This document shows positions 18,594-24,767 of a stretch of DNA of 64,000 nt, piece by piece. The notes beneath the pieces are model-generated. The model had not been told where the DNA came from, did no database searches, and saw only the letters and a program-made list of their open reading frames with translations. The stretch covers positions 124,001-188,000 of the forward strand of contig NZ_PJJJ01000034.1 of NCBI RefSeq assembly GCF_002929495.1. Reading direction: 5' to 3'. The position numbers and the translations under genes were made by a program. The stretch comes from Cryobacterium sp. Y82 (lineage in GTDB: Bacteria; Actinomycetota; Actinomycetes; Actinomycetales; Microbacteriaceae). Position 1 is the first letter of the stretch; every line of letters starts with the position of its first letter.

Positions 18594-19455
18594 TCAGGTG
18601 GTCGGGGCGGGGATAACCACCATGGGTGACTGGATGTTCAGCACGATCGAGTGACTCACCGAACCGAGCAGCAGTTTCGAGATGCCCTTCTGCCCGTGGT
18701 CGCCAACGACGAGCAGCGCGGCCCCCCGGGCTGCGTCGAGCAGCGCCGATTGCGGGGCACCGCGCACCAGCGAGGCCCGAATCGAGGGCCGGATAACGGC
18801 GGGCCACGGTGAGTAGTGATTCATCGAGGATGCGCCGGTGGGAGTTTTCCAGCGTCTGCAGCAACCGAGCGTCGGGTTCGGTCGTATCGCGCCAGACGAG
18901 CGGCTCTTGCCACGCGTGGATGGCGTGAAGTTCCTGGCCGGTGCGGTCGGCCTCCGCTGCGGCGAAGTCCACGGCGGTGTTCGAGGCCGCAGATCCGTCG
19001 ACGCCGACCACGACCCCCGCGTGGTGTTTGCTGTCGCTCTCCGGGATAATCGCGATCGGTCCCCGAGCCGAACCGGCCAGCCGGGCGCCCATCGACCATT
19101 CGTAGCGCAGGGTCGAGCCGCGGCGACGGTGCGTTCCGACCACAACGATGGTGTCGCATCCGCTCAACGCGCGCAGTTCGGTGATCGGGTCCCCGGAACG
19201 CAGGTCGGCGTGCACGGTGAGATTGGGGTATTGCGCGCTCACCCGATCGGCGTCGTCCTTGAGTGCCTCGCGGGCGCGCGCGTTGGTGGACTCCTCGGTG
19301 AAGTAGTCCGCCGACGACACCGTGCGGTCAAGGATGCGCACCAGAGTGAGCTCGCCCTCGTTGCAGCGGGCGAGTGACCAATCCAGGGCTGCCCGAGCGG
19401 GGTCCGACCCATCCCAGGCGACCACCGTCTGGTTTCGTGTGAGCGTGTTGGTCAT
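18594..19455 (-). pseudogene. Tandem universal stress protein, frameshifted in the second domain
   Basis: From ATG 19455 (MTNTLTRNQTVVAWDGSD) the first Usp domain is complete (VVVGTHRRRGS, PIAIIPE), and the second begins normally (AGVVVGVDGSAASNTAV). After ILDESLLTVARRYPA the frame is lost; the proper ending, RASLVRGAPQSALL, LLVVGDHGQKGISKLLL and VVIPAPTT, stops at 18594 in another frame. The shift lies at about 18784-18792 in a GGG/GGCC run, consistent with one extra base, so a sequencing error is possible. Its intact relative is at 21103. A DosR-like box sits 97-116 bp upstream, which supports a hypoxia-induced role for the functional form. Confidence 0.82.
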
Positions 19456-19551
19456 GAGCTCAATCCCTTCTCCGGTGGTGGGCCACGAGCGGGAATGTCG
19501 TGTGAGGGTCACCAGCGAGTGTTCTTCACGTTAGCCATCCCCAGCACCGCC

Positions 19552-19571
19552 GAGTAGGGCCTTAAGTCACG
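19552..19571 (-). promoter_or_regulatory. DosR-like box upstream of the tandem Usp gene
   Basis: Read in the direction of the Usp gene the site is CGTGACTTAAGGCCCTACTC, matching CGGGACTTNNGGCCCTA at all but one defined position. It lies 97-116 bp before the ATG at 19455. Confidence 0.7.
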
Positions 19572-19585
19572 TCACGCCCAATGAT

Positions 19586-19759
19586 TCAAACGGATGCCGC
19601 AGCCTGCGTGCGCACCCGCAGCATGGCGCCCCACGCCTCGGCGCGCCGAACCTCGCCCGGTACCAGGGTCACCTTGGCCGGGGCCAGGCCACGCCCGATC
19701 ACCTCCGCGACGAGACGGGTGTTGCCGTACATCGATTCGTAGACGATCAGGGCGCGCAT
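19586..19759 (-). pseudogene. Flavodoxin-like N-terminal fragment (57 aa)
   Basis: A short frame begins MRALIVYESMYGNTRLVAEV, the FMN phosphate-binding start of flavodoxins (ESxYGNT), with GGAGG 5 nt before the ATG. It continues as IGRGLAPAKVTLVPGEVRRA and stops after 57 codons, whereas flavodoxin-fold proteins have 140-180. The middle and C-terminal FMN-binding loops are absent. It follows the alcohol dehydrogenase gene by 23 bp in the same direction, so it was probably an operon member that has lost its 3' part. Confidence 0.7.
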
Positions 19760-19782
19760 GAAAACCTCCAGGGAAAACGTTG

Positions 19783-22018: not shown

Positions 22019-23779
22019 ATGACGGATCAGACCGCCGCCGAACTCGCCCGCACCCAGGACCGCATGCGCGGTCTGCTCGACGCTGTCGTTTCAGTGGCCG
22101 AAGACCTCAGCCTGGAGGCCGTGCTGGAACGCGTCATCACCGCGGCCTGCGAGCTCGTGCAGGCGCGGTACGGTGCCCTGGGCGTGATCGGCACTGGTCA
22201 GGCCCTGAGTCACTTCGTCACCGTCGGCTTCGACGAGGAGACCGTTCGGCAGATCGGGGCGCTTCCGGTCGGGCACGGCGTGCTCGGGTTGCTCATCCGG
22301 GAACCGCACCCCATTCGTCTGCATGACCTGCACGACCACCCCGACTCCTTCGGCTTTCCTGCCCATCACCCGCCGATGAAATCGTTCCTCGGCGTTCCGG
22401 TGCGGGTGCGCGACACTGTCTTCGGCAACCTGTATCTCACCGAGAAGGAGGGCGGCGGCGACTTCACGGACGAAGACCAGGAACTCGCCGTCGCGCTCGC
22501 CGCGGCCGCCGGCGTCACGATCGAGAACGCGCGTCTCTACGATGAGTCCCGCGCCCGCTCCCGTTGGCTTGAGGCGGTCGCTGCGATGGGTCGCGACCTG
22601 CTGCGCCCCGTTGACGGCGAGGGCAACGGCCTCGACCTTGTCGTTCAGCGAGCACTCGTGGCGTCCGGCGCCGACCTGGCCGTGATTGGGTTTCCCACCG
22701 ACGACAGCCTGTACTGCGCCGCCGCAGCCGGCACGGCGGTGACCGGTGCTGCCGCGTCAGCACTGGTCGGCACGACCGTGTTGCTGCAGGCCGGCGTGCT
22801 CAGCGAGTTGCAGGCCACCGGCCACTCCGCCACGCTCGTCAAGCCGCCCCTGCAGGGTGCGGATTCCGCAGCCGGCTCGGCCGCCGCGTGGTCGCGCCTG
22901 GGGTCCACGCTCATTGCTGCCCTGGGCCCAGCTGGGGAGGGGCAGGGTGTGATTCTGCTGTCGCGGACACCGGCATCCGCTGAATACAGCCTCACCGATG
23001 TGGAGATGAGCGCGGTCTTCGGTACCCAGATGTCACTCGCCCTTGAACTGGCCTCGGTGCATCGCATGCGCGAAGAGCAGGCCGTGCTCGGTGACCGTGA
23101 TCGTATTGCCCGTGACCTGCACGACCTGGTCATTCAGCGGCTATTCGCCGCCGGTCTCAGCATGCAGAGTCTACGGCGGTTCACCAATGATCCGATCGCG
23201 CTGGATCGCATCAACGCGGTCACAAACGAGCTCGATGACACCATTCGGGAGCTGCGCGACACGATTTATTCGCTGCGCGGAATGGCGCAAGACACCGGCA
23301 CGCTGAGCAGTCGCATTCTGGCCGTGATTAAAGAGGGGGCGGCGAGCCTGCCGTTCGCGCCGCGCATCCGCTTGTCCGGGACGATCGATGCGCCGCTCGC
23401 CGATGATCTCAGCAGCAGCCTGCTGGCCGTGATCTCGGAGGGGCTCAGCAACGCGGCGCGGCATTCAGAGGCGAGCACGATCGACATTTCGGTTGACGCT
23501 CAGAATGATCGGATCAAGTTGGTCATCGCCGATAACGGCTGCGGTTTCAGTAAACTCAACCGGCGCAGCGGCCTGGACAACCTCAAAGAGCGGGCGATGC
23601 TCCTCGGCGGAAAATTCTCGGTGCGCAGCGTTGTGGGGGAGGGAACGCGGCTGCGCTGGTCCGCACCGGTTCCGGAGGTTACCGTTGGTGTTCGTCTCCA
23701 CGTTTCGCAACGTACACGGCAGCCTGGGTTCGGCGCTGAAAATCCAGTTTCGCCAGCATCGAAGACACGTAGTTCTTGA
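22019..23779 (+). CDS. devS: DevS/DosS-like GAF sensor histidine kinase
   Basis: 586 residues: two GAF domains (about 20-175 and 190-345), a HisKA_3 segment with phospho-acceptor near His368 ([17 protein letters not shown]) and HATPase with [14 protein letters not shown] (N box), DNGCGF (G1) and [11 protein letters not shown]. This order is that of mycobacterial DevS/DosT, where the first GAF binds haem and senses O2, NO and CO; a His suitable for haem ligation is plausible in GAF1 but I cannot assign it. The domain proper ends at about [11 protein letters not shown]; roughly 30 more residues are encoded within the antisense devR 3' end. The gene is convergent with devR and overlaps it by 101 bp. 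Confidence 0.9.
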
Positions 23780-24365
23780 CCGTCTTTTCGGCCAGAAACA
23801 TGGTTTGCCCGATCTCACGGTTGGTCAGGCCCTCGCCGATCAGGTCGAGCACCTTGCGCTCCTGCGCGGTGAGGGAGGCGAGGCGCACGTCTTGTGGATC
23901 GGCCAGGCCCGCGATGATGCCCGCCTTGACCGCGGGGTCGAACAGGGATTCACCGGCAGCAGCGCGGCGGATCTTGCCGAGCAGGTCGGTGCTGCGGATC
24001 TCTTTCAGCACGTAGCCAGCCGCGCCCGCCAGCACCGCGCCGCGCAACGCCTGCTCGTCGTCGTAGCTCGTGAGAATGAGGCACTGCAAGGCCGGATTGA
24101 CCGAGCGCACGTCGCGACAGACCTCGATGCCGGTGCCGTCGGGCAGGCGGGCGTCGAGAATGGCCACGTCGGGGCGCAACTTCGGGATCAGGACGGTGGC
24201 TTCCGCGGCCAGGCCGGAGTCGGCGACGACGTCGAAACCTTCACCTTCGAGCAGTTCACGCAGGCCACGCCGCACCAACTCGTGGTCGTCGAGAATGAAA
24301 ACGCGGATGGGAACGGCGGGCGCTGCCTCGATGGTCGGTCGCGGCGCGCTGTGCGGCAGGTTCAT
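23679..24365 (-). CDS. devR: DevR/DosR-like response regulator (NarL/LuxR family)
   Basis: 228 residues. Receiver: acidic pair Asp26-Asp27, phospho-Asp71 ([12 protein letters not shown]), Thr99 and Lys121 (YVLKEI). Output: [20 protein letters not shown] and [19 protein letters not shown]; the recognition helix residues Lys194, Lys197 and Asn198 correspond in spacing and identity to Lys179, Lys182 and Asn183 of Mycobacterium tuberculosis DosR, which contact DNA. Conserved RRTQAAV follows. It has about 17 extra N-terminal residues compared with mycobacterial DosR; an internal start is possible. Its own promoter carries a DosR-like box 70-89 bp before the ATG, pointing to autoregulation. Confidence 0.93.
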
Positions 24366-24434
24366 GGGGGTCCTTCCCGCACGGGCACGCTGGCCCGATA
24401 CGTCTTAACAGTGTTGCGGGCGGCTAGGCCCGGC

Positions 24435-24454
24435 GACTAGGGCCAAAGGTCCGG
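24435..24454 (-). promoter_or_regulatory. DosR-like box upstream of devR
   Basis: Read toward devR the site is CCGGACCTTTGGCCCTAGTC, identical to the alcohol dehydrogenase box except for two positions. It lies between devR (start 24365) and the end of csoR (24459). Confidence 0.75.
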
Positions 24455-24458
24455 TCCT

Positions 24459-24767
24459 TTACGAACGCACCAGCCGCGCAATGGCCGCCGAGGCCTCCTT
24501 CAGCTTGGCCTCGGCTTCGGTGCCACCGGCCATGGCCGCGTGCAGGACACAGTGGTTGAGGTGATCATCGAGCAGGCCGAGAGCGACCGATTCAAGGGCG
24601 CTCGTCATGGCGGAAATCTGGGTCAGAATGTCGATGCAGTACTTGTCGTCGGTGACCATGCCCTGCAGGCCGCGAGCCTGGCCCTCGATGCGGCGCAGTC
24701 GCTTGAGATAGGCGTCCTTGTTCGAGATGTAGCCGTGCGGGCCGTCGTGGGTCTCGGAATCGCTCAT
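24459..24767 (-). CDS. csoR: CsoR copper-sensing repressor
   Basis: 102 residues from ATG 24767. CsoR-family alpha-helical protein with all three Cu(I) ligands in place: Cys44 (KYCIDILTQ), His69 (DDHLN) and Cys73 (HCVLH), matching Cys36-His61-Cys65 of the M. tuberculosis prototype. It represses copper efflux genes and leaves DNA upon Cu(I) binding. It is divergent from copZ-copA with two matched palindromes between them. Its 3' end almost touches the devR promoter box. Confidence 0.92.
   Translation of the reverse strand: MSDSETHDGPHGYISNKDAYLKRLRRIEGQARGLQGMVTDDKYCIDILTQISAMTSALESVALGLLDDHLNHCVLHAAMAGGTEAEAKLKEASAAIARLVRS

Follow-up and report, generated by a model that had tools for sequence, protein, structure and literature searches.

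The window analysed here, a stretch of 64,000 nucleotides (nt) from Cryobacterium sp. Y82 (contig NZ_PJJJ01000034.1, positions 124,001 to 188,000, which is C18:124001-188000 of the 3.69 Mb genome G000), holds a module in which a DevR-type response regulator, a DevS-like, putatively haem-binding GAF histidine kinase, two genes for tandem-Usp proteins (usp1 and usp2) and a zinc-type alcohol dehydrogenase gene (adh) lie together, with a near-palindromic box ahead of usp1, adh, usp2 and devR. We propose that this module is a DevR/DosR-type low-oxygen switch that, in this genus, most likely moves the cell to fermentation and stress survival, and we put the probability of this reading at about 0.8. 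The sequences themselves show the orthology, the key residues and the boxes with their conservation, spacing and recurrence; that oxygen is the signal, that DevR binds the boxes and that it activates the genes behind them, we infer. DevR/DosR has been studied mostly as the mycobacterial dormancy switch, and Cryobacterium is a cold-living genus whose members are usually regarded as aerobes.

Regulator and kinase

The devR gene (23679-24365, minus strand) encodes a NarL-type response regulator of 228 amino acids, whose best match among solved structures is full-length Mycobacterium tuberculosis DevR (3c3w, 2.1e-61), followed by VraR (7.6e-33). Its residues D71, K194, K197 and N198 align with D54, K179, K182 and N183 of 3c3w, which bears out the three recognition-helix residues (Lys194, Lys197 and Asn198) named in an earlier reading of the window, hereafter the original prediction. 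Judged by these alignments, the regulator is a DevR/DosR orthologue. The recognition-helix motif EKTVKNYVS is present in 18 of 19 DevR homologues from 21 loci (G008 and G021 yielding no sequence here), the remaining homologue, that of G058, having EKTVKNYVT. The next-best response regulator of the same genome is 38% identical to DevR.

The devS-like gene (22019-23779, plus strand) encodes a kinase of 586 amino acids. The best solved match of its GAF-A domain is 2vzw (2.3e-53), listed as a probable histidine kinase response regulator and which we take to be the GAF-A domain of DosT. H117 and Y139 stand at the positions of the proximal His149 and distal Tyr171 of DosS GAF-A, residues whose roles are described in PMC4082495, and G55 stands at the position of DosS Glu87, as does Gly85 in DosT. 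HisKA_3 (PF07730) and HATPase (PF02518) domains were also matched. Of the predicted two-GAF, DevS-like kinase next to devR, the DevS-like kinase is indeed there; a second GAF domain was not confirmed, Pfam recognizing a single GAF stretch at residues 30-169. Haem binding and oxygen-gated autophosphorylation are predicted for this protein, and no second kinase at 1e-60 or better was found in the genome.

A conserved box ahead of four genes

The four boxes are 16-mers located at 19555-19570 (usp1, GTGACTTAAGGCCCTA, minus strand), 20919-20934 (adh, GGGACTTTTGGCCCTA, minus), 20968-20983 (usp2, GGGACTTCCGGCCCTA, plus) and 24438-24453 (devR, CGGACCTTTGGCCCTA, minus), the last adjoining the csoR stop codon. 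They lie at the places originally predicted, and each is oriented like its own gene; the gaps to the start codons, put at 70-136 base pairs (bp) by the original prediction, are 99, 80, 119 and 72 nt, respectively. Sixteen named loci encode a relative of the window kinase, all of them in Cryobacterium, and 15 of these have all four boxes, the remaining one having three. Conservation of the boxes exceeds that of the rest of their upstream regions: 0.96 versus 0.73 for usp1 (rank 2 of 145 16-mers), 0.94 versus 0.73 for adh (rank 18 of 265), 1.00 versus 0.73 for usp2 (rank 1 of 265) and 0.99 versus 0.80 for devR (rank 4 of 155).

In the window, nine matches with at most three mismatches were found against 4.14 expected by chance, and 1 of 100 shuffles reaches nine. 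A scan of the whole genome with GGGACTTNNGGCCCTA at no more than one mismatch returned three sites, all in the module. Two mismatches added 14 sites, including the devR box and one upstream of a gene encoding a DUF2079 protein (PF09852), for a total of 17 sites with four in the module. Across 60 genomes, the present one included, there are 106 sites of at most one mismatch, 47 of which are no more than 10 kb away from a DevR homologue (at least 45% identity) where about 0.6 would be expected; 35 of the 47 belong to this genome and 11 close relatives, and 12 to ten others.

A −10-like hexamer at a set distance from the box

In six promoter classes, a TANNNT hexamer starts 20-22 nt after the end of the box 16-mer (58 of 60 sequences), compared with a background frequency of 0.012 (327/27275) for the hexamer per 3-nt window in the upstream regions concerned. 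In the window these are TAACGT of usp1 (19528-19533, minus strand, offset 21) and TACCGT of adh (20891-20896, minus strand, offset 22); among the sequences compared, TANNNT is found at offset 21 in 16 of 17 for usp1 and at offset 21-22 in 16 of 16 for adh. The other classes lie outside the module, the genome groups being defined below: phosphoketolase, with offsets of 20-21 nt in 11 of 12 sequences (ten of the 11 from group A, the exception being G003, plus G016) and of 21-22 nt in all seven from group C1, and pyruvate formate-lyase (PFL), at 21 nt in 3/3 sequences from group A and 5/5 from C1.

If TANNNT is taken as the −10 hexamer, the box would lie at about −49 to −34. By spacing, a box over the −35 region would fit at adh and usp1, the transcription starts being predicted ones. 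In M. tuberculosis, the proximal site of DevR promoters overlaps the −35 element, according to PMC3029386. The usp2 and devR boxes fall outside the TANNNT rule: among the sequences listed, the hexamer 21 nt after the usp2 box reads CAGAAT or CAGGAT, which makes CAGAAT at 21005-21010 (plus strand) a weak −10 candidate, and nothing clear is seen at devR.

Boxes outside the module

We grouped genomes by their best DevR identity: A, at least 86% (13 genomes, including G000 and G003); B, 75-80% (G006, G016, G017 and G029); C1, 55-56% (G002, G004, G007, G011, G022, G023 and G030); C2, 52-54% (G008, G012, G019, G020, G021, G024, G025, G026 and G032); and D, with no DevR homologue of 45% (G001, G005, G027 and G033). 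EKTVKN is present in all 17 group A loci, and A and C1 have the helix EKTVKNYVS in common where it was read.

The phosphoketolase gene of the genome itself (G000:C18:199156) lies 11 kb past the window and has a box at 199016-199031 with one core mismatch. In group A, 11 of the 12 genomes with the gene have a box that departs from the core at one position at most, 123-129 nt from the domain match, with the exception of G003, where it is at 199 nt; G015 is without the gene. All seven C1 genomes have a box there, a perfect palindrome 129-137 nt from the domain match. A box was found in one of three group B genomes (G017 has no phosphoketolase match) and in neither of the two group D genomes with the gene. 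Conservation of the box is 0.97 versus 0.67 in A and 0.97 versus 0.72 in C1. The boxes themselves differ, being mostly GGCAC in A and GTCCC in C1, at a similar place ahead of the gene. Different boxes with the same helix and about the same place would be explained more easily if the function had been maintained than if the DNA had simply been inherited.

PFL was not found in the genome of the window. Among its group A relatives, the box GGGACTTACGGCCCGA lies 33 nt before the PFL start codon in G018, G014 and G035, while G013 has a variant box and G003 a site with one mismatch; in C1, all five genomes searched have a box 255-256 nt from the match. The PFL search did not take in G023-G036, G035 having entered through its box. 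No exact box was found at the PFL gene of G005. Ahead of the DUF2079 gene, a reversed box was found in nine of 11 group A genomes, the sample covering all but G034 and G036; three of the nine (G028, G031 and G035) came in through the box itself. A site matrix finds no box in the other six genomes with a match to the gene.

Exact GGGACNNNNGNCCC occurs within 400 nt upstream of PFL in 10 of 17 copies (0.16 expected from shuffles), of the DUF2079 gene in 5 of 12 (0.24 expected; one of the five, in G047, is a core match without matrix support) and of phosphoketolase in 7 of 28 (0.7 expected). Partial matches were dropped before these counts (L112, L114 and L117 for DUF2079, L134 of G048 for PFL, and L164 and L165 for phosphoketolase).

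A second DevR lineage

In the C1 genome G022, 12 of 17 core places are intergenic (p = 3e-6). The boxes concerned stand ahead of PFL, phosphoketolase, devS, an AdhE-like gene, NrdD, phosphofructokinase and phosphoglycerate mutase, and also ahead of transhydrogenase/alanine dehydrogenase-like, superoxide dismutase, class-V aminotransferase-like, lipoprotein-like and ABC-type genes (the aminotransferase-like, lipoprotein-like and ABC-type labels were given by reading). The AdhE-like gene corresponds to the acetaldehyde dehydrogenase part (NCBIfam PRK13805, below cut-off for this fragment), and NrdD is likewise a fragment (PF13597, 4.6e-66). The AdhE, NrdD, phosphofructokinase and phosphoglycerate mutase boxes come from this one genome. 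The last three are without TANNNT at 20-22 nt, which lowers the probability of the fermentation-switch reading.

Across six genomes, GGGACYWNNGKCMC occurs at 57 distinct places, of which 51 were examined, six module sites being outside the 51 and gene calls coming from a simple script; 28 are intergenic, against a background of 18% (p = 3.6e-9). Without three module sites the figure is 25 of 48 (p = 1e-7). The signal in GGGACYWNNGKCMC is one of position, not of number.

Proposed mechanism and alternatives

In the mechanism that we propose, loss of O2 from the haem would render DevS active, and DevS would then phosphorylate DevR at Asp71. Phosphorylated DevR would bind the near-palindrome GGGACYTNNGGCCCTA, covering the −35 region at several promoters, and drive transcription from a −10 element located 20-22 nt beyond it. 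Its targets in the module would be usp1, adh, usp2-devS and devR itself, the latter giving positive feedback. Elsewhere in the same genome, it would act on phosphoketolase and perhaps on the DUF2079 membrane protein. PFL is a candidate in relatives, where it has this box at this spacing. In the second DevR lineage, phosphoketolase, PFL and, in one genome, the AdhE-like gene are marked by box and spacing, and NrdD, phosphofructokinase and phosphoglycerate mutase by the box only.

Several observations weigh against this reading. Many of the sequences are from close relatives, and the counts are not of independent events. Although near-perfect sites are placed as the original prediction of non-random positions would have it (three of three in the module), loose matches are not enriched: at no more than three mismatches the genome has 179 sites versus 562 in the reversed control, so that only near-perfect sites are informative, and the raw count of GGGACYWNNGKCMC in the six genomes is 60 versus 111 under the same kind of control. 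TANNNT at 20-22 nt is absent from all 34 usp2 and devR sequences, meaning that the spacing rule does not cover all members; of nine further intergenic sites in G022, two have TANNNT at 19-23 nt (those of the AdhE-like and aminotransferase-like genes), and TANNNT at 20 nt is also found at two coding sites (L199 and L200). The phosphoketolase gene of G035 has no box, and no DUF2079 box was found in G015 and G003. The DUF2079 box, besides being reversed, has TANNNT at 30-31 nt in 4 of 6 cases, and at the genome's own DUF2079 gene a conserved TAGCGT lies much further from the box. In group C2, DevR is present and each of the nine devR/devS stretches that were read contains exact core sites, yet no box was found at the conserved place ahead of phosphoketolase in any of nine genomes (only 235 nt upstream being available in G025) or ahead of any of four PFL copies. 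The link was thus lost there or gained elsewhere.

Alternatively, the sites outside the module (phosphoketolase, PFL and DUF2079) might reflect chance, or ancestral conservation of promoters unrelated to DevR, raw site counts not exceeding the control and C2 combining DevR with the lack of these boxes. We consider this unlikely, given that the phosphoketolase box keeps to 123-137 nt from the domain match in both A (except G003) and C1 despite their different box sequences, that two genomes with no DevR homologue of at least 45% (G005 and G033) have no box ahead of phosphoketolase, and that sites are in excess between genes.

A slightly smaller probability attaches to the boxes being those of DevR with a signal that is not low oxygen, be it NO, CO, a different ligand of the haem GAF domain or the redox state. 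PFL and NrdD, putative targets in relatives, are oxygen-sensitive enzymes, which argues for oxygen. DosS and DosT respond to CO and NO too, as stated in PMC4082495; against this stands Gly55 of the kinase, which is DosT-like, at a residue linked to stable O2 binding, a link that the same review also reports as disputed. The two kinds of signal are mutually compatible.

Far less probable is that the boxes are real regulatory sites of some other regulator and lie near devR by descent. DevR binding is predicted, and the usp1, usp2 and devR boxes are each one position off GGGHCNWWNGNCCC, the core of the consensus published for Rhodococcus equi, which the adh box fits. However, the recognition helix matches that of DevR, lineages whose DevR identity spans 52-100% have core sites in their devR/devS stretches, and sites of the same form are reported for OsdR of Streptomyces coelicolor and for R. 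equi (PMC5069765 and PMC2947987). An RNA hairpin in 5′ leaders, suggested by a near-palindrome that, taken as bare letters, could self-pair 72-119 nt from the start codons, is hardly credible, since in six promoter classes the −10-like hexamer comes after the box, which would leave the box outside the transcripts from those promoters.

Returning to the low-oxygen switch, we put forward tentatively, at somewhat less than even odds, that Cryobacterium DevR would be mainly a switch for anaerobic fermentative growth rather than dormancy, in which a box-plus-spacing code (GGGAC-N4-GNCCC-like, then TANNNT after 20-22 nt) ties phosphoketolase, PFL and adh to an oxygen sensor. To our knowledge, the mycobacterial regulon does not include PFL, AdhE, NrdD or phosphoketolase. 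If the proposal is true, the mycobacterial dormancy regulon would be one specialized descendant of an older actinobacterial aerobic-to-anaerobic switch, and the fermentation enzymes would bear on the role of that switch before dormancy. The Cryobacterium module would then serve as a non-pathogenic test system for the working of sensor and promoter. The box-plus-spacing rule makes part of the regulon predictable from sequence. The original description as a dormancy module holds for its DevR/DosR type, and the regulon looks fermentative rather than a dormancy set alone. The compact regulon that it described is borne out as a DevR/DevS-type pair with a conserved box, oriented like the gene behind it, at usp1, adh, usp2 and devR, but probably extends beyond the module, since in the same genome a box also precedes phosphoketolase and the DUF2079 gene. 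The −10-like hexamer, the recurrence of the box elsewhere and the frameshift in usp1 go beyond the original prediction.

Relation to known systems

The module resembles the DevR/DosR-DevS/DosT system of M. tuberculosis in the orthology of the regulator sequence, the recognition residues, the Asp phosphorylation site, a putative haem GAF-A domain with His and Tyr, the form of the box and its predicted position over −35 at several promoters, the presence of usp genes and a box ahead of the regulator's own gene. It differs in that devR and devS are convergent and overlap by 101 bp, unlike those of M. tuberculosis, which we take to be co-directional, and the kinase has a DosT-type Gly, unlike DosS.

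In S. coelicolor, OsdR is a functional DevR counterpart, and its predicted targets include a usp-adh-usp unit (SCO0200-SCO0198) and pyruvate phosphate dikinase, as given in PMC5069765. According to the same source, the OsdR/OsdK system is alike in having a Usp gene and a zinc alcohol dehydrogenase gene under the same kind of predicted site and a site ahead of the regulator's own gene, and differs in its consensus (AGGGCCGATCGGCCCT), its developmental targets and its osdR-osdK operon, a co-directional arrangement that differs from the convergent, overlapping genes of the Cryobacterium module. In the main text of that paper, 'phosphoketolase', 'fermentat' and 'acetate' have 0 occurrences. For R. 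equi, DosR/DevR boxes of the same form as those of Cryobacterium have been predicted, with the consensus NNNGGGHCNWWNGNCCCBNN, in PMC2947987 as a prediction only. These two reports precede the original prediction of a regulon outside Mycobacterium.

Among the papers listed in the literature searched, largely without subscription journals, we found no link of DevR/DosR to phosphoketolase or PFL, and the papers listed for DevR/DosR together with Cryobacterium or Microbacteriaceae did not contain the respective genus or family name. A DevR-type regulon outside Mycobacterium is not new, and the module is of an ordinary DevR kind; its novelty lies in the likely fermentation targets.

Genes of the module and its surroundings

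The gene order is usp1 (minus strand), a flavodoxin-like remnant (minus), adh (minus), a divergent intergenic region, usp2 (plus), devS (plus) and devR (minus). The usp1 gene (18594-19455) is not intact but frameshifted in its second half, with an open frame at 18448-19512 (354 amino acids) and Usp matches in two frames. From its QTV motif, the frame runs for 279 residues in ten relatives' loci and 283 in L046, compared with 327 in the window, in another frame. By motif search, usp1 is open in 11 of 16 relatives' loci, showing that intact copies exist; the frame was not found by this search in the other five. The flavodoxin-like remnant lies at about 19600-19759 (minus strand, ends approximate); the gene is 186 amino acids long in L034 and L035, and the L035 protein is a weak flavodoxin match (4.1e-6). 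A flavodoxin-like open frame with a start motif stands between usp1 and adh in 6 of 16 relatives' loci. The adh gene (19783-20838, minus strand) encodes 351 amino acids (PF08240/PF00107). Both adh and usp1 were apparently lost from one locus, L043.

The usp2 gene (21103-21957, plus strand) encodes 284 amino acids (PF00582, 2.8e-44). As devS follows 61 nt later in the same direction, the two probably share the usp2 promoter, which would place both halves of the two-component pair under the control of their own product. The devS and devR genes overlap tail to tail over exactly 101 bp (23679-23779), a length found in all 17 loci compared, and the end of devR is antisense to the codons for the last ~33 residues of the kinase. 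Where both genes were called in lineage C stretches, they are co-directional. Beyond devR, at 24459-27355, are csoR and two genes identified by reading the sequence, one for a small protein that binds heavy metals and one for a copper-type ATPase; the csoR stop codon is followed within a few bases by the devR box. A further Usp-domain match lies at 6024-6437, with no core site of at most one mismatch within 1.5 kb.

Candidate sites not retained

Two more Usp genes of the genome (C28:33744 and C18:130024) have no convincing box. Besides those of devR and the DUF2079 gene, the genome has 12 two-mismatch sites. Ten of them run into open frames of 100 amino acids or more, which include, by reading, a primase-like gene and two copies resembling flagellin. 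Of the other two, L015 is clear of such frames and L014 sits where a contig begins. The sites TGACCTGTGGCCCTA, TGACCTCTGGCCCGA and TGACCTTCGGCCCGA, recurrent in group A, were assigned to coding conservation since the fetched copies (L008 and L094-L096) lie in called genes. A conserved GAGACTTCCGGCCCTA in G014, G018 and G003 is inside a 295-amino-acid gene; in these genomes (L050-L052), genes of 405 and 295 amino acids have identical starts as far as listed, a box-like site lies inside the gene, and the genes are possibly a mobile element. Finally, a box with at most one mismatch lies ~300 nt upstream of a DEAD-box-like helicase gene (named by reading) in G004, G023 and G030 (L099-L101).

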